Assembly: GCF_000739085.1 (NCBI RefSeq)
Contig: NZ_CP009110.1
Span: 6,758,001 to 6,822,000 of the forward strand
DNA length: 64,000 nt
Source: Amycolatopsis methanolica 239
GTDB taxonomy: Bacteria > Actinomycetota > Actinomycetes > Mycobacteriales > Pseudonocardiaceae
Reading direction: 5' to 3'
The position numbers and the translations under genes were made by a program. This document shows, one piece after another, positions 1,021 to 9,228 of this stretch (position 1 is its first letter; each line of letters begins with the position of its first letter). The notes under the pieces were generated by a model that did not search any database, was not told where the DNA came from, and was given only the letters and a program-made list of their open reading frames with translations.

Positions 1021-3777
1021 GTGGATGTGGTTGCGGGAACCGAGCGCGCGCGGCGGTTGCTGCACCGGGTCACCGCCGGGATCCGGGAGAACCCGGTGAC
1101 CCACGTGGCCGACCTGCCCGCCCGCGAGGCGCGGCACACCGAGTGGCCGTCGTGGGCGGACCCGCGGGTGGTGACGGCCCTGCGCTCGAGCGGGGTGGAG
1201 CGGCCCTGGGCGCACCAGTCGGAGGCGGCGTCGCTGGCCTTCGGGGGGCGGCACGTCGTGGTGTCGACGGGCACGGCGTCCGGCAAGTCGTTGTGCTACC
1301 AGCTGCCGGTGCTGACGAAGCTGGTCGCAGACGACAAGGCGTGCGCGCTGTACCTGTCGCCGACGAAGGCGCTGGGCGCCGACCAGCTGCGTTCGGTGTC
1401 CGCTTTGGACGTTCCCGGGGTGCGGGCGGCGTCGTACGACGGTGACACGCCGATGGCGGAGCGCGACTGGGTGCGGGCGCACGCGCGGTGGGTGTTCACG
1501 AACCCGGACATGCTGCACCGCGGCATCCTGGCCGCGCACTCGCGGTGGGCGCGGTTGTTCCGCAAGCTCTCCTACGTCGTGATCGACGAGTGCCACAGCT
1601 ACCGGGGCGTGTTCGGGTCGCACGTCGCGCTGCTGCTGCGGCGGCTGCAGCGGGTGGCACGGCACTACGGTTCGTCGCCGGTGTTCATCCTCGCGTCCGC
1701 GACAACGGCGGAGCCGGGCGAGTTCGCGTGCCGTCTGGTGGGCGAGGACTGCGTGCCTGTGGTCGAGGACGCGTCACCGCGCGGGGCGCGGACGGTGGCG
1801 TTGTGGGAGCCGCCGCTGGTGGAGGACCACCGGGGTGAGAACGGTGCGCCGGTGCGCCGGTCGGCGGGTGCGGAGGCCGGCCGGATCCTGGCGGAGCTGG
1901 TCATCGAGGGTGCGCGGACACTGGCGTTCGTGCGGTCGCGGCGGGGCGCGGAGCTGACGGCGCTCGGCGCCCGGCGGTTGTTGTCCGAAGTGGACAGCGA
2001 GTTGCCGTCGCAGGTGGCGGCGTACCGGGCGGGCTTCCTGCCCGAGGAGCGGCGTGCGCTGGAGCGCGCCCTGCTGTCGGGCGAGCTCAAGGGCGTGGCG
2101 ACGACGAACGCGCTCGAGCTGGGTGTGGACATCGCGGGGCTGGACGCGGTGGTGCTGGCGGGGTATCCGGGCACGCTGGCGTCGTTCTGGCAGCAGGCGG
2201 GCCGGGCGGGCCGGGCGGGTGACGACGCGCTGGTGGTCTTTGTGGCGCGGGACGATCCACTGGACACGTACCTGGTGCACCACCCGGCGGCGGTGCTGGA
2301 GCGGCCGGTGGAGACGGCGGTGCTGGACCCGTCGAACCCGTACGTGCTGGCGCCGCAGCTGGCGTGCGCCGCGGCGGAGCTGCCGCTGACCACGGGCGAG
2401 CTGGACACGTTCGGCGGAGCGGCGGCGCGCGAGGTGCTGGACACGCTCGTGGCGGACGGGCTGCTGCGGAGGCGGCCGAGCGGCTGGTACTGGACGTCCC
2501 GGGACCGCCCCCACTACGAGGTGGATATTCGTGGTTCGGGCGGCGAGCAGATCGCGGTGGTGGAGGCGGACACGTCGAGGCTGCTCGGAACGGTCGACCC
2601 GGGCTCGGCGTGCACGACGGTGCACCCGGGTGCCGTGTACCTGCACCAGGGGTCGTCGTACGTGGTGGACGAGCTGGACCTGGAGTCCGGGATCGCGCTG
2701 GTGCACGCGGAAGACCCGGAGTGGACGACGTCGGCGAGGGAGGTCGCCGACATCAAGGTGCTGAGCACCCAGGAACGGGTCGACTACGGCGGGGTGAGCG
2801 TGTGCCTGGGCGAGGTCGCGGTGACCTCCCAGGTGGTCGGCTACCTGAGACGCCGCCCGTCCGGCGAGGTCCTGGACCACGTGGCGCTCGACCTGCCTGC
2901 GCAGACGCTCGAGACGCGGGCCGTGTGGTACACGATCAGCCCGGAACTGCTGGAGGCCCCTCGGGCTGTCCCTGCAGGCGAACGGCGCACCGCCACCGCA
3001 GCTCTGGAATCCAGGGGTTCCCGCACAGCCACTGCGCCCCAGGAATCCACCGGAACGTCCAGAACCAGCGGACCGCGAGAAGGGCGCGGCCCCACCGGAG
3101 CCACCGGCAGGCCGTCTGAAGCCGGCGCACCGTCTGGAGCCAGCGGCGCACGTGGAACCGACCAGGCATCCCGAACCGGCAGCCCATTGGAAACTGGAAT
3201 GGCGTCCGAAGCCGCCAGCGCGCTTGAGGCCGGCCAGCCGTCCGGAGCCGCCGGCCCGCTTGAAGCCGCCCAGCCGTCCCGAACCCGCGGCCCGCTTGAA
3301 GCCAGTCGGGCGTCTGGAAGCGGTGGCCCGCTTGGATTCGGCGGGGCGCCGGGGGGCGCCGGTCTGGATCCGGCGCGCATCCCCGGCGCCCTGCACGCCG
3401 CCGAGCACGCGGCGATCGGCCTGCTACCGCTGTTCGCTACGTGCGACCGGTGGGACATCGGCGGCGTCTCGACCGCTTTGCACGCTGACACCGGGGAGGC
3501 GACGGTGTTCGTGCACGACGGCCATCCCGGAGGCGCGGGATTCGCCGATCGCGGTTTCGCTGCTGTTGTCCCGTGGCTGGCCGCTACGCGGGAGGCCATT
3601 CTCTCCTGCGAGTGCCCGGCGGGATGCCCGTCCTGTGTTCAGTCACCGAAGTGCGGGAACGGTAACGACCCACTGGACAAGGCGGGGGCGGTGGCCGTGC
3701 TGGAAACCGTGCTCGGGGCGGTGAGTCTTCACAGTGCCCAGCACGACCACGGGGTGGCTCAGGCTGCGGCGAACTGA
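1021..3777 (+). CDS. Superfamily 2 helicase with DUF1998 zinc domain (MrfA/SftH type)
   Basis: ATP-dependent 3'-5' DNA translocase/helicase of the Hrq1/MrfA/SftH clade, linked in other bacteria to repair of mitomycin-type damage. Visible motifs are Walker A (STGTASGKS), a DECH box in VVIDECHSYRG, SATTAEP, and motifs V/VI in TNALELGVDIAGLDAV and QQAGRAGRAG. The C-terminal DUF1998 part carries the four-cysteine cluster CECPAGCPSCVQSPKCGNG. Between the helicase core and that cluster lies a low-complexity insert of about 140 residues (nt 2960-3380) with 12-residue repeats. GTG 1021 is chosen as the start, since residues just after it begin the conserved domain. At 918 residues it is long for the family because of the insert. 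It corresponds to Rv3649. The 3' end overlaps the convergent gene by 19 bp. Confidence 0.93.
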   Translation: MDVVAGTERARRLLHRVTAGIRENPVTHVADLPAREARHTEWPSWADPRVVTALRSSGVERPWAHQSEAASLAFGGRHVVVSTGTASGKSLCYQLPVLTKLVADDKACALYLSPTKALGADQLRSVSALDVPGVRAASYDGDTPMAERDWVRAHARWVFTNPDMLHRGILAAHSRWARLFRKLSYVVIDECHSYRGVFGSHVALLLRRLQRVARHYGSSPVFILASATTAEPGEFACRLVGEDCVPVVEDASPRGARTVALWEPPLVEDHRGENGAPVRRSAGAEAGRILAELVIEGARTLAFVRSRRGAELTALGARRLLSEVDSELPSQVAAYRAGFLPEERRALERALLSGELKGVATTNALELGVDIAGLDAVVLAGYPGTLASFWQQAGRAGRAGDDALVVFVARDDPLDTYLVHHPAAVLERPVETAVLDPSNPYVLAPQLACAAAELPLTTGELDTFGGAAAREVLDTLVADGLLRRRPSGWYWTSRDRPHYEVDIRGSGGEQIAVVEADTSRLLGTVDPGSACTTVHPGAVYLHQGSSYVVDELDLESGIALVHAEDPEWTTSAREVADIKVLSTQERVDYGGVSVCLGEVAVTSQVVGYLRRRPSGEVLDHVALDLPAQTLETRAVWYTISPELLEAPRAVPAGERRTATAALESRGSRTATAPQESTGTSRTSGPREGRGPTGATGRPSEAGAPSGASGARGTDQASRTGSPLETGMASEAASALEAGQPSGAAGPLEAAQPSRTRGPLEASRASGSGGPLGFGGAPGGAGLDPARIPGALHAAEHAAIGLLPLFATCDRWDIGGVSTALHADTGEATVFVHDGHPGGAGFADRGFAAVVPWLAATREAILSCECPAGCPSCVQSPKCGNGNDPLDKAGAVAVLETVLGAVSLHSAQHDHGVAQAAAN
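3163..3342 (+). repeat. Five 36-bp tandem repeats inside the helicase gene
   Basis: Five in-frame units of 12 residues: QASRTGSPLETG, MASEAASALEAG, QPSGAAGPLEAA, QPSRTRGPLEAS and RASGSGGPLGFG. They are degenerate at the DNA level and rich in Ala, Gly, Ser and Pro. Looser related sequence continues upstream to about 2960. The repeats sit in the linker before the DUF1998 cysteine cluster. Confidence 0.85.
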
Positions 3778-5884: not shown

Positions 5885-5913
5885 GAGGGTTCTCCTTTGT
5901 CTGTTGTGGAGGG

Positions 5914-6495
5914 TCAGAACACGTTGAGGCGTCCGGCGAGCCCGAGGACCACCGGCACGACCCCGAGGCACACGAAGGCCGGGAGGAAGCAGAGCCCCAG
6001 CGGTCCGGCGATCAGCACGCCCGCACGCTGAGCCCGCGCCTCGGCGCGATCCCCGAGCGAGGCGCGTATTCCGCGGGCGAGGTCGGTGGCCGCGTCGGCG
6101 AGCGTGGTTCCGCTGCGCGCGGTCCGCTTGGCCGCGCGGGCGAACTCGGCGGTGCCGGCACATCCGAGCGCGGGCACCCACGCTTCGGTCGCGTCGGCGC
6201 CGAGTTCGAGCAGACCGGCAGTGGCACGAAGGGCATCCGCTTCCGGCCCCGTCTCGCCATCGGTGACAGCGCGCAAAGCGGCCGGCACCGGTTGCCCGGC
6301 GCGCAAGCAGGCTGCGAGCAGGTCCCACGTCGCGGCGAGGTCGAGGGGATCGCTCCTGCGCCGCCGACCGCGCGTGCGCGCGGGCGACTGTGGCGAGGGA
6401 AAGAGGTGCGCCAACCGCAGACCTGGGACTGGCCTGCCGGGAAAGGTCAGCAGCGCCGCGCCCAGCAACGCGACCACCAGGGCGGCTGTGCTCAT
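5914..6495 (-). CDS. Type II secretion F-domain protein TadC
   Basis: 193 residues. It starts MSTAALVVALLGAALLTFPG (membrane segment), then a basic linker, the GspF-like helical domain (LAATWDLLAACLRAGQPVPA to TDLARGIRASLGD), and two closing hydrophobic stretches. TadB and TadC form the inner-membrane platform on which the ATPase builds the pilus. The ATG overlaps the preceding mini-ORF stop as ATGA. The C-terminus GLAGRLNVF ends 29 bp before flp. Counterpart of Rv3657c. The start codon region is the template of the repeat array upstream. Confidence 0.88.
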   Translation of the reverse strand: MSTAALVVALLGAALLTFPGRPVPGLRLAHLFPSPQSPARTRGRRRRSDPLDLAATWDLLAACLRAGQPVPAALRAVTDGETGPEADALRATAGLLELGADATEAWVPALGCAGTAEFARAAKRTARSGTTLADAATDLARGIRASLGDRAEARAQRAGVLIAGPLGLCFLPAFVCLGVVPVVLGLAGRLNVF

Positions 6496-6689
6496 CGTGG
6501 GGCTCCCCGGTCTGCGGCCGATGCAACCAGATGCGGCGGGACCAAACCGGGTTGGATCAGCAGTGGATCGGGGCGAGGTGGAATTGCTGCGATCGGCTCG
6601 GCAGCAGGAGAGCCGAACCGAAGTGGGGGACCTGGCTCGGGTTGGGGTGGAAGTGTTGTGGGCAGCGGGGCGGGGGTGGGCGTGCTCAT
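6492..6689 (-). CDS. Coupled Pro-rich mini-ORF 4 in tad operon
   Basis: 65 residues: MSTPTPAPLPTTLPPQPEPG, then LRFGSPAAEPIAAIPPRPDP, ending ADRGAPR. Start and end each overlap neighbours by ATGA, so ribosomes from upstream frames could pass straight through to tadC. The first residues copy the tadC start (MST) and the last copy the tadB end (RGAPR). No known domain or membrane segment. It may be translated only as a coupling device, or be a duplication scar. Expression is not shown. Confidence 0.5.
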   Translation of the reverse strand: MSTPTPAPLPTTLPPQPEPGPPLRFGSPAAEPIAAIPPRPDPLLIQPGLVPPHLVASAADRGAPR

Positions 6690-6934
6690 CGTGGGACTCC
6701 CCGGTCTGCGGCGGAAGCAACCAGATGCGGCAAGACCGCGCCGGGTTGGATCGGCACTGGAACGGGGCTGGGCGGATGTGGCGGGACCAAACCGGGTCGG
6801 ATCGAAACTGGATCGGGCCGGGGTGGAATTGCTGCGATCGGCTCGGCAGCAGGAGAGCCGAACCGAAGTGGGGGACCTGGCTCGGGTTGGGGTGGAAGTG
6901 TGGTGGGCAGCGGGGCGGGGGTGGGCGTGCTCAT
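6686..6934 (-). CDS. Coupled Pro-rich mini-ORF 3 in tad operon
   Basis: 82 residues. The first 42 are identical to mini-ORF 4 (MSTPTPAPLPTTLPPQPEPG onward), then a Pro/Val-rich insertion (HPPSPVPVPIQPGAVLPH), ending ADRGVPR. ATGA overlaps at both ends. The near identity with mini-ORF 4 points to a recent duplication. No recognisable domain. Confidence 0.5.
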   Translation of the reverse strand: MSTPTPAPLPTTLPPQPEPGPPLRFGSPAAEPIAAIPPRPDPVSIRPGLVPPHPPSPVPVPIQPGAVLPHLVASAADRGVPR

Positions 6935-7122
6935 CGTGGGGCTCCCCGGTTTGCGGCGGCAGAACCCAGATGCGGCAAGACCGCGCCGGGTTGGATCAGC
7001 AGCGGTTCGAGGCGGGGCGGAATTGCTGCGATCGGCTCGGCAGCGGATGGGCCGAACCGAAGCAGGGGAACCGACTCGGGTCGGGGTGGTGTCGGCAGCG
7101 GGGCGGGGGTGCGCGTGCTCAT
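6931..7122 (-). CDS. Coupled Pro-rich mini-ORF 2 in tad operon
   Basis: 63 residues: MSTRTPAPLPTPPRPESVPL, then LRFGPSAAEPIAAIPPRLEP, ending ANRGAPR. It is the most diverged of the three long units. Unlike the others it has its own strong AAAGGAGA ribosome site, in a segment resembling the tadC/flp junction near 5890-5920. Its stop overlaps the next start as ATGA. Confidence 0.5.
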   Translation of the reverse strand: MSTRTPAPLPTPPRPESVPLLRFGPSAAEPIAAIPPRLEPLLIQPGAVLPHLGSAAANRGAPR

Positions 7123-7154
7123 CGCGGGGCTTCTCCTTTGGTGCTGCAGAGGTG

Positions 7155-7277
7155 TCAGCCCGCGGGGAGGGCGAGCAGGGGTGGGGGAGGCGTTGGAGAG
7201 CGGGAGCGAAGTGGCGGACTGACTCGGGTTGGGGTGGAAGTGTTGTGGGCAGCGCGGCGGGAGCTGGGCGTGCTCAT
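7155..7277 (-). CDS. Coupled mini-ORF 1 directly after tadB
   Basis: 40 residues: MSTPSSRRAAHNTSTPTRVS, then basic and Pro-rich sequence ending PPLLALPAG. The ATG (7275-7277) overlaps the tadB stop by ATGA, exactly where tadC would be expected to start. A 32-bp gap with a ribosome site follows before mini-ORF 2. Likely the remnant of an old tadC start cut short by the rearrangement. Confidence 0.45.
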   Translation of the reverse strand: MSTPSSRRAAHNTSTPTRVSPPLRSRSPTPPPPLLALPAG

Positions 7278-8071
7278 CGTGGGGCTCCTCGTCTTGTTAG
7301 GTGGGCGCTCCATGCGCCGCCAGTGGTGATCAGCGCCGTGCCGAGCAGGAGGAGGGCGTTGCCGCTCGGGGTGGCGAACAGGATGTGGGTCGGGTGGGCT
7401 CCCATGCCCTCGCCGAGCAGCAGTCCGAAGACGGGCAGGGCGGCGAGGACCATCGCGCTCGCGCGGGGGCCGGACATCGCTGCCTCGGACTGGCTGGTGA
7501 ACCGCAGCTCGGCGGTGATGTCCTGGCGGACCGCGTCGAGCAGGTCGGCCAGCGGGAGGCCGTGCCGTTGGCTGAGCGACCACGCCCGCGCCAAACGCCT
7601 CCGCGCCGCCGACAGTGGTTCGGCCGTCGGGACCGTCGCCAGTGTTTCAGCGAGGTTCCCGCCAAGGCGGGCGGCGCCGGCCACCGCGTCGAGGATCTCG
7701 GCGACGGGGCGGGGCGCATCGGCCGCAGCGGACTCGGCGGCCAGCGCGGGCGTGCCGCCGGCCCGGAGGTCCACCACCATCGCGTGCAGCGCCTCGGCCA
7801 TCGCCCGGCGCATCGCGAGCCCGGACTTCGATCGGCGACGCGCCTGCCACTGGCGCCAGCCGGCCAAGCCGAGCAACGCGCCTGCCGCCCACACCATCGG
7901 TGGCACGACGAACAGCAACGGCACCAGCCCGAGCGCGAGCGCCTTCCGCGGCTTCGGCAGTCCGCGGCGTGCCGGAGACGGCGCGAGCACGCCCAGCCGA
8001 GCCGCCGAGCCACGCACCGGTGGCCAGCACAAGGCGGCCGTGGCCGCGCAGGCCAGCGAGTGGGTCAGCAC
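7274..8071 (-). CDS. Type II secretion F-domain protein TadB
   Basis: 265 residues starting at GTG 8071 (VLTHSLACAATAALC), which overlaps the tadA stop (GTGCTGA). N-terminal membrane helices (LALGLVPLLFVVPPMVWAAG) precede the GspF-like domain (MAEALHAMVVDLRAGGTPAL to LADLLDAVRQDITAELRF). Two C-terminal helices follow (MVLAALPVFGLLLGEGMG and NALLLLGTALITTGG). Works with TadC as the membrane platform. The end, LTRRGAPR, is echoed by the downstream mini-ORFs. Counterpart of Rv3658c. Confidence 0.88.
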   Translation of the reverse strand: MLTHSLACAATAALCWPPVRGSAARLGVLAPSPARRGLPKPRKALALGLVPLLFVVPPMVWAAGALLGLAGWRQWQARRRSKSGLAMRRAMAEALHAMVVDLRAGGTPALAAESAAADAPRPVAEILDAVAGAARLGGNLAETLATVPTAEPLSAARRRLARAWSLSQRHGLPLADLLDAVRQDITAELRFTSQSEAAMSGPRASAMVLAALPVFGLLLGEGMGAHPTHILFATPSGNALLLLGTALITTGGAWSAHLTRRGAPR

Positions 8072-9228
8072 GGCTCGCCTCCCCGGGGCAGCAACGCGGA
8101 GAACAACACCCGCCGCTTCGTCCACCCACCGTCCTGCCACACCGGAAGCACCCGGACGTCCCCGTTGTCGCTCCGGCTCAGCACGCCGACCTCCGCCAGT
8201 TCCCGCTGCCCCGACGACGACCGGCGCATGTGGAGGACGACCTGCACCGCGGCCGCGAGCTGGCTGTGCAAGGCCGCGCGGGACAGGCCGCCCAGCGCGG
8301 CAAGCGCTTCCAGCCGGGCCGGCACCTCCGCCGTCGAGTTCGCGTGCAACGTTCCGGCGCTGCCGTCGTGACCGGTATTCAACGCGTTGAGCAGCTCGCA
8401 CACCTCCTGGCCGCGCACTTCGCCGACCACGAGCCGGTCCGGTCGCATCCGCAGCGCCTGGCGCACCAGGTCACGCAGGCCGACCTCCCCCGCGCCCTCG
8501 ACGTTGGGCGGCCGGGCGGTCAACCGCACGAACTGCGGGTGCGCGGGCTGCAGTTCGGCGGCGTCCTCAACGCAGACGATCCGCTCGGCCGGGGACACCG
8601 CCCCGAGCATCGCGGCGAGCAGGGTGCTCTTGCCCACGCCGGTGCCACCGGTGACGAGGAAGGCCAGCCGGGCGGCGACCACCGACTCCACCAGTTCCGC
8701 ACCTTCGGCCCCGAAGGCCCCCAGGTCGCGCAACGCGGCGAGGTCGTGCACAGCGGGACGGAGGATCCGCAACGAGATGCAGGTGCCGTCGGCGGCGATC
8801 GGTGGCAGCACCGCGTGCAACCGGACGCGGCCATGCGGCCCGAGCCCGGGCAGCCAGCCGTCGACGTAGGGCTGGGCGTCGTCGAGCCGCCGACCGGCCG
8901 CGAGCGCGAGCCGCTGGGCGAGACGGCGCACTCCCTCCTCGCCCGAGAAGTGAGCCTCGACGCGGCGCAGCCCGTCGGCCCCGTCGACCCACACGTCGTC
9001 CGGACCGGTGACCAGCACATCGGTGACGCCGGGCAGCGCGAGCAACGGTTCCAGCGGACCGGCACCGGCCAGCTCCTGCCGGATGAGCCGCAGGGCGTCG
9101 AGCGCCTCCGTGTGCCCGACGGGACGCCCGGCTTCCGCGCGAACCGCGTCCGCCACCGTCGCCGGGTCCGTCCCAGCGCCAGCACCCGCCAGCCGGTGGC
9201 GGACCCGCTCGACCAGTTCGGAGTTCAT
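8065..9228 (-). CDS. TadA/CpaF family secretion ATPase
   Basis: 387 residues. Hexameric ATPase that powers tad pilus assembly. Walker A is GGTGVGKST, followed by the acidic Walker B-like VCVEDAAELQP, then RMRPDRLVVGEVRGQE and the His-box region TGHDGSAGTLHANS, all typical of the VirB11/CpaF family. Slightly shorter than many CpaF proteins because the N-terminal domain is compact. ATG 9228 overlaps the ssd stop by ATGA. Counterpart of Rv3659c. Confidence 0.93.
   Translation of the reverse strand: MNSELVERVRHRLAGAGAGTDPATVADAVRAEAGRPVGHTEALDALRLIRQELAGAGPLEPLLALPGVTDVLVTGPDDVWVDGADGLRRVEAHFSGEEGVRRLAQRLALAAGRRLDDAQPYVDGWLPGLGPHGRVRLHAVLPPIAADGTCISLRILRPAVHDLAALRDLGAFGAEGAELVESVVAARLAFLVTGGTGVGKSTLLAAMLGAVSPAERIVCVEDAAELQPAHPQFVRLTARPPNVEGAGEVGLRDLVRQALRMRPDRLVVGEVRGQEVCELLNALNTGHDGSAGTLHANSTAEVPARLEALAALGGLSRAALHSQLAAAVQVVLHMRRSSSGQRELAEVGVLSRSDNGDVRVLPVWQDGGWTKRRVLFSALLPRGGEPC

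Follow-up and report, generated by a model that had tools for sequence, protein, structure and literature searches.

Tandem multiplication of the tadB/tadC stop-start junction in Amycolatopsis methanolica, and chained mini-ORFs as candidate translational relays in Pseudonocardiaceae

Why should the stop-start junction between two genes of a pilus operon be repeated several times in tandem, and what keeps the short open reading frames (mini-ORFs) of such an array joined end to end? The question is raised by a locus of Amycolatopsis methanolica 239, contained in the 64,000-nucleotide stretch analyzed here (the window), from a genome available as a single contig of 7,237,391 bases. The locus shows the layout of a Tad (type IVc) pilus platform, a T2SSE ATPase gene followed by two T2SSF genes according to Pfam, where the direct tadB/tadC overlap is replaced by an array. 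The features, all on the reverse strand, are the following.

8068..9228, reverse strand: tadA, secretion ATPase, without stop codon (Pfam T2SSE, E=1.2e-52)
7274..8071, reverse strand: tadB (Pfam T2SSF, 5.5e-11); likely GTG start at 8071, placed by eye, overlapping the tadA stop
7276-7274, reverse strand: tadB stop codon TGA, within the first ATGA
7155..7277, reverse strand: mini-ORF m1, 40 aa; start in ATGA with the tadB stop, early end at TGA
7123..7154, reverse strand: gap of 32 bp between m1 and m2, with the Shine-Dalgarno-like AAAGGAG at 7139-7133
6931..7122, reverse strand: mini-ORF m2, 63 aa; ATGA overlap with m3
6686..6934, reverse strand: mini-ORF m3, 82 aa; ATGA overlap with m4
6492..6689, reverse strand: mini-ORF m4, 65 aa; ATGA overlap with tadC
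5914..6495, reverse strand: tadC (Pfam T2SSF, 1.1e-11)
7270..7291, reverse strand: junction copy 1, tadB stop and m1 start, the original tadB end
7115..7136, reverse strand: junction copy 2
6927..6948, reverse strand: junction copy 3
6682..6703, reverse strand: junction copy 4
6488..6509, reverse strand: junction copy 5, m4 stop and tadC start

A sequence-only reading of this stretch had described a junction recurring up to five times, four mini-ORFs coupled by ATGA except at one gap with its own ribosome site, and two units about 99% identical over 105 bp, and the analysis confirmed it on each of these points. The 22-nt stop/start junction is present in five copies between tadB and tadC, at spacings of 155, 188, 245 and 194, all four equal to 2 mod 3; such a spacing lets an ORF that starts in one ATGA terminate at the TGA of the following junction. 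The links from m2 through m3 and m4 to tadC are all ATGA, and within the m1-m2 gap AAAGGAG is placed 10 nt upstream of the m2 ATG, with a predicted pairing of -8.0. In the window TRF reports a tandem period of 245 bp with 93% matches, and the last two units show a single difference in their first 105 bp.

No second copy of the array was found elsewhere in its own genome, where the next best match is 28 nt long (E=0.005 and 0.018), and a mobile repeat was rejected for lack of such a copy. A stretch of the m1-m2 gap (7128-7140) shares 12 of 13 bp with 5887-5899, the leader of a pilin-like gene downstream of tadC; the likeness may reflect a copied ribosome site or chance. The window also contains a 36-bp tandem repeat (3203-3303), within a 918-aa ORF (1021-3777) which is helicase-like by eye.

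A match to tadC was found in all of the 41 genomes searched, its own included. In the genus Amycolatopsis 13 of 19 loci show a plain -1 overlap of tadB and tadC, and a stop/start overlap of -4 or -1 nt is present in the four nearest outgroups. The expanded junctions of the window genome (G000) and of G002, G017, G005 and G011 form one group, with support 100/99, in a TadB+TadC tree of ten, which left out a sixth expanded Amycolatopsis, G009 (L026), whose TadC is distant (63% identity). On this distribution the plain overlap, ATGA or GTGA, is ancestral, and the multiplication appears to have arisen in the clade of five species.

Within the clade there are four units in the window genome, five each in G002 and G017, and one each in G005 and G011. 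The only mini-ORF of G005 (22 aa) resembles the TadC start fused to the TadB end; that of G011 is 53 aa long, and no second copy of its insert was found within G011. Tested for a common origin with the units of the remaining three species, these two single units gave P above 0.05 in 13 of 16 alignment shuffles, and 0.01-0.04 in the rest. For G017 a longer stretch of the genome was used in place of L011, which lacks tadB. Its last mini-ORF is interrupted by an 885-bp insertion (L120:5026-5910) with TAA on both sides; the unit is 194 long, counting one copy of TAA, and neither piece contains a stop. The insertion, which by eye is transposase-like and contains stop-free stretches reaching 255 codons, leaves tadC apart from the chain of mini-ORFs. 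The first units of G017 and G002 are homologous to m1 and their frame lacks its stop, so that the m1-m2 break appears to be derived.

Homologous units are distinguished by indels of 1, 4, 7, 10 and 11 bp, and parts of the peptide would therefore be translated in different frames. Unit length is nonetheless 2 mod 3 in 13 of the 16 units of the five species (P=1e-4 if units are independent), and in 9 of 12 (P=0.004) after hand-merging those without a separating non-triplet indel. The remaining 3 of 16 are 0 mod 3, in which case the ORF continues in frame through the next unit and still closes at an overlap. Frame-shifting indels are frequent within units, and yet the end-to-end phase has been kept more than chance would give.

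Between species the mini-ORF peptide is close to neutral. Three units of the window genome compared with one of G017 gave dN/dS values of 1.09, 1.26 and 0.98, and two G002 units gave 1.02, whereas among the same three species the values are 0.12-0.18 for tadB and 0.08-0.14 for tadC, with dS like that of the mini-ORFs. Within the window genome dN/dS is 0.35 for m3/m4 and 0.59 for m2/m4 (13 and 28 changes, respectively), and on these few changes some peptide constraint may be present. In the same genome, GC at codon positions 1, 2 and 3 of the mini-ORFs is 77, 69 and 64%, to be compared with 88% and 83% at the third position of tadB and tadC; the mini-ORFs therefore show no coding bias. They have no match in Pfam and none in NCBIfam, where tadB and tadC are likewise without a match.

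The junction was then followed through the family. Matches were obtained in 283 of 297 genomes, and 153 loci were examined: 19 from the genus, 6 from the family, plus two sets of 71 and 57 loci drawn from the top of the listed matches (G195, a listed match near a contig end, is absent from these). A plain stop/start overlap is found in 124 of them, a short overlap of non-standard type in 7 and an expanded junction in 22; an Actinokineospora locus from the named collection (L046), in which a 202-aa ORF spans from tadB to tadC and overlaps both, provides the 23rd expanded species. The 7 short overlaps were kept outside the chain test, and include L219, where the nearest start in the tadC frame lies only 4 nt beyond the tadB stop. 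Four loci (L039, L040, L144 and L225) duplicate species already counted, and only L225 entered the new-locus set.

A chain was defined as a series of starts at -1, +2 or -5 from each stop, leading from tadB to the tadC-frame start, and its expectation was computed from dinucleotide shuffles with random phase. The test was defined after the first examples had been seen and its P values treat loci as independent; in these terms, 14 of 19 expanded loci in the first set are chained (4.6 expected, P=8e-7). The 57 new loci comprise 51 plain ones, 1 short overlap (L219) and 5 expanded, 4 of which are chained (1.2 expected, P=0.01), while the unchained one duplicates a species already seen. Over both sets, an unbroken chain of mini-ORFs connects tadB to tadC in 18 of 23 expanded species, against 5.7 expected (P=5e-9). 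The excess is found also for inserts of at least 100 nt (13/18, 3.8 expected), outside Amycolatopsis (15/17, 5.0 expected) and when one species is taken for each of 11 genera (9.9 chained, 3.4 expected, median P=2e-5). The five without a full chain are L009 (the window genome), G017, L026, L059 and L192. The translational relay, which had been one of several suggestions for this locus, gains support from these parallels in other genera.

Tandem multiplication in which the tadC start or the tadB end can still be recognised is seen, partly by eye, in L246, L241, L256, L176 and L157. Among 19 chained loci (L219 included, here and in the counts of restart types and Shine-Dalgarno sites below), 12 have a last unit whose end is like that of tadB, and 4 a first unit that begins like tadC (P of 0.05 or less against windows of the same gene). 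Junction duplication is therefore visible in many of the loci, not in all. At the tadA/tadB junction, taken as a control, 3 of 13 spaced loci are chained, all from one genus (0.9 expected, P=0.03); TadB N-termini align badly, and 9 of 152 family loci gave no call.

The explanation which we consider probable is that duplications of the tadB/tadC junction persist if they keep termination-reinitiation going, the mini-ORFs being relay cistrons whose peptides are disposable. Translation of tadC would normally rely on ribosomes coming off the end of tadB and beginning again at the start codon that overlaps its stop. Local duplication, followed by indels, would have multiplied this overlap in tandem; a duplication that introduced an untranslated spacer, or shifted the phase, would break the coupling of tadC, and one restoring an overlapping start together with a stop that overlaps in phase would be tolerated. 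The mini-ORFs would then be translated, handing ribosomes from tadB to tadC, and their peptides would be neutrally evolving by-products. According to two reports, coupling in native gene pairs is almost lost at a distance of about 20 nt (PMC10666635), and overlapping pairs are strictly coupled in 13 of 14 cases tested (PMC6728339). With so steep a fall of reinitiation and coupling that is mostly strict, an out-of-phase duplication would be expected to uncouple tadC, and an in-phase one to yield a relay. The relay would explain why the peptides are close to neutral, why phase is conserved and why chains recur in parallel. Evidence on the other side comes from the broken m1-m2 link of the window, the insertion ahead of tadC in G017, the five expanded species that lack a full chain, the unchained spacers of Nocardia described below, the Shine-Dalgarno-like sites from which tadC could start by itself, the low dN/dS within the window genome, the loci where junction duplication is not visible, and the chained loci at the control junction. 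A wider version, which we put forward only tentatively, is that junction multiplication is recurrent in the family and has repeatedly built serial relay cistrons selected for nothing except phase and overlap, so that the spacer would be a natural mutagenesis record of the need of tadC for tadB ribosomes.

In this explanation selection would act on the coupling and not on shielding of the mRNA. The main rival takes the opposite stand: continuous translation of the spacer would prevent Rho termination ahead of tadC, and ribosome cover would matter more than precise reinitiation. Untranslated RNA is where Rho loads, with polarity as the consequence (PMC12548453), and chains would supply cover as well as relays, so that similar chains are predicted. 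The restarts within chains are 4-nt overlaps in 45 of 46 cases, a weak argument against cover alone, since the chain test admits only short overlaps. A further objection comes from Nocardia, which keeps unchained tadB-tadC spacers of 24-1314 bp. Among its 19 expanded loci in the named set L041-L118 (without L064, L097 and L116, whose overlaps are odd), 4 are chained, 3.0 being expected (P=0.34); tadC has a Shine-Dalgarno-like site in 14 of 15 unchained loci, and the unchained spacers suggest that coupling is dispensable in this genus. Considering both sides, we hold protection from Rho to be unlikely. Unchained spacers of 216 to 1314 bp occur in ten Nocardia species (L042, L043, L044, L051, L052, L055, L062, L082, L102 and L107), and that of L102 (N. 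altamirensis) contains a repeat of the tadB end.

The number of units could also tune the TadB:TadC ratio, with ribosomes lost at each restart and the array acting as an adjustable attenuator. Closely related species do differ in this number (4, 5 and 5 versus 1 and 1); however, no sign of selection for a given number emerged in the analyses made, and Shine-Dalgarno-like sites, present in the window genome at each junction copy and at tadC, could refill the ribosomes. We rate this possibility as improbable.

Another view would regard the array as the neutral scar of a repeat-prone junction, its phase and openness being luck in a stop-poor sequence and tadC using its own Shine-Dalgarno site. 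Stops are indeed scarce, the three forward frames containing 1, 5 and 2 in about 780 codons each (fifteen units from five species), and the opposite strand of the array is open too. As no frame holds many stops, openness is weak evidence, and it was rejected as a sign of function because such a composition makes it cheap. The argument of the sequence-only reading, that frame survives where scars would not keep it, holds therefore for phase and falls for openness: in the window, the features that stand above chance are the repetition and the phase of the junction spacings. The missing codon bias of the mini-ORFs also agrees with a scar, as do the sites ahead of tadC. Besides the window, 13 of the 19 chained loci in the family have one, compared with 83 of 543 random positions, so that de novo initiation is possible; the general rule that tadC lacks such a site and hence needs coupling was rejected on this count, even if such a site is absent from the tadC of G002, and in L175 it is no better than at random positions. 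Luck, however, fits poorly with 18 of 23 expanded species chained where 5.7 are expected, with the result of the new-locus set taken by itself, and with the 2 mod 3 phase of 13 units in 16, and the scar appears quite unlikely.

That the mini-ORFs encode functional Pro-rich peptides working with the Tad machine, the small pilus-associated products once suggested, is very improbable and was rejected as the main reading, because the Pro-rich composition shared by three related species (by eye) and the m3/m4 ratio within the window genome are opposed by a dN/dS of about 1 between species, frameshifted stretches within units, the lack of third-position GC bias and of any Pfam match, and no likeness visible by eye to mini-ORF peptides of other genera.

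The usual arguments for dependence on termination-reinitiation come from reporters and from the statistics of overlaps. If the relay explanation is true, junctions which drift in nearly everything but phase would supply evolutionary evidence of coupling dependence at a single locus, with a contrast between Pseudonocardiaceae, which keep coupling, and Nocardia, which seems to have lost it. In that case small ORFs that are translated but free of constraint would also have a way of arising inside operons: with translation of every new relay starting immediately and its peptide free to vary, such arrays could be a source of de novo small proteins, the 202-aa ORF of Actinokineospora being a candidate.

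Among known systems, mycobacterial interspersed repetitive units (MIRUs) form tandem arrays and are present between senX3 and regX3. Compared by description, they resemble the tad array in being short repeats with an ORF at -4 spacing to the neighbouring gene, and they are apparently mobile (PMC12548453); no copy of the tad array was found elsewhere in the genome, so that it lacks the interspersed character of MIRUs. Unlike MIRUs, the tad units of several lineages resemble the tadB end or the tadC start of their own host.

The second comparison is with the uPPE2-PPE2 relay of Mycobacterium tuberculosis, where an AUGA-joined short ORF feeds ribosomes to the next gene, as proposed here (PMC11260477, PMC12713380). 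It works mainly by termination-reinitiation, and early and late stops both lower the output (PMC11260477). The mini-ORFs m2, m3 and m4 similarly run by an ATGA overlap into the frame that follows them, up to tadC, as in relay mini-cistrons of the uORF type; m1 does not, being separated from m2 by the 32-bp gap. However, uPPE2 is a single uORF placed ahead of the first gene and controlled by a B12 riboswitch, whereas the tad array would form serial relays between two genes, made, unlike uPPE2, apparently by duplication. The overlapping coupled pairs described in PMC6728339 and PMC10666635 are of the same kind as the ancestral tadB/tadC pair, ATGA or GTGA, but are single two-gene junctions, while the tad array is multiplied. 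No report of tadB/tadC junction multiplication was found among the open-access papers listed, for some queries the best 12-15 of up to 239. The array is apparently closest to MIRUs and to the uPPE2 relay, and would represent serial relay cistrons derived from local duplication of a junction.
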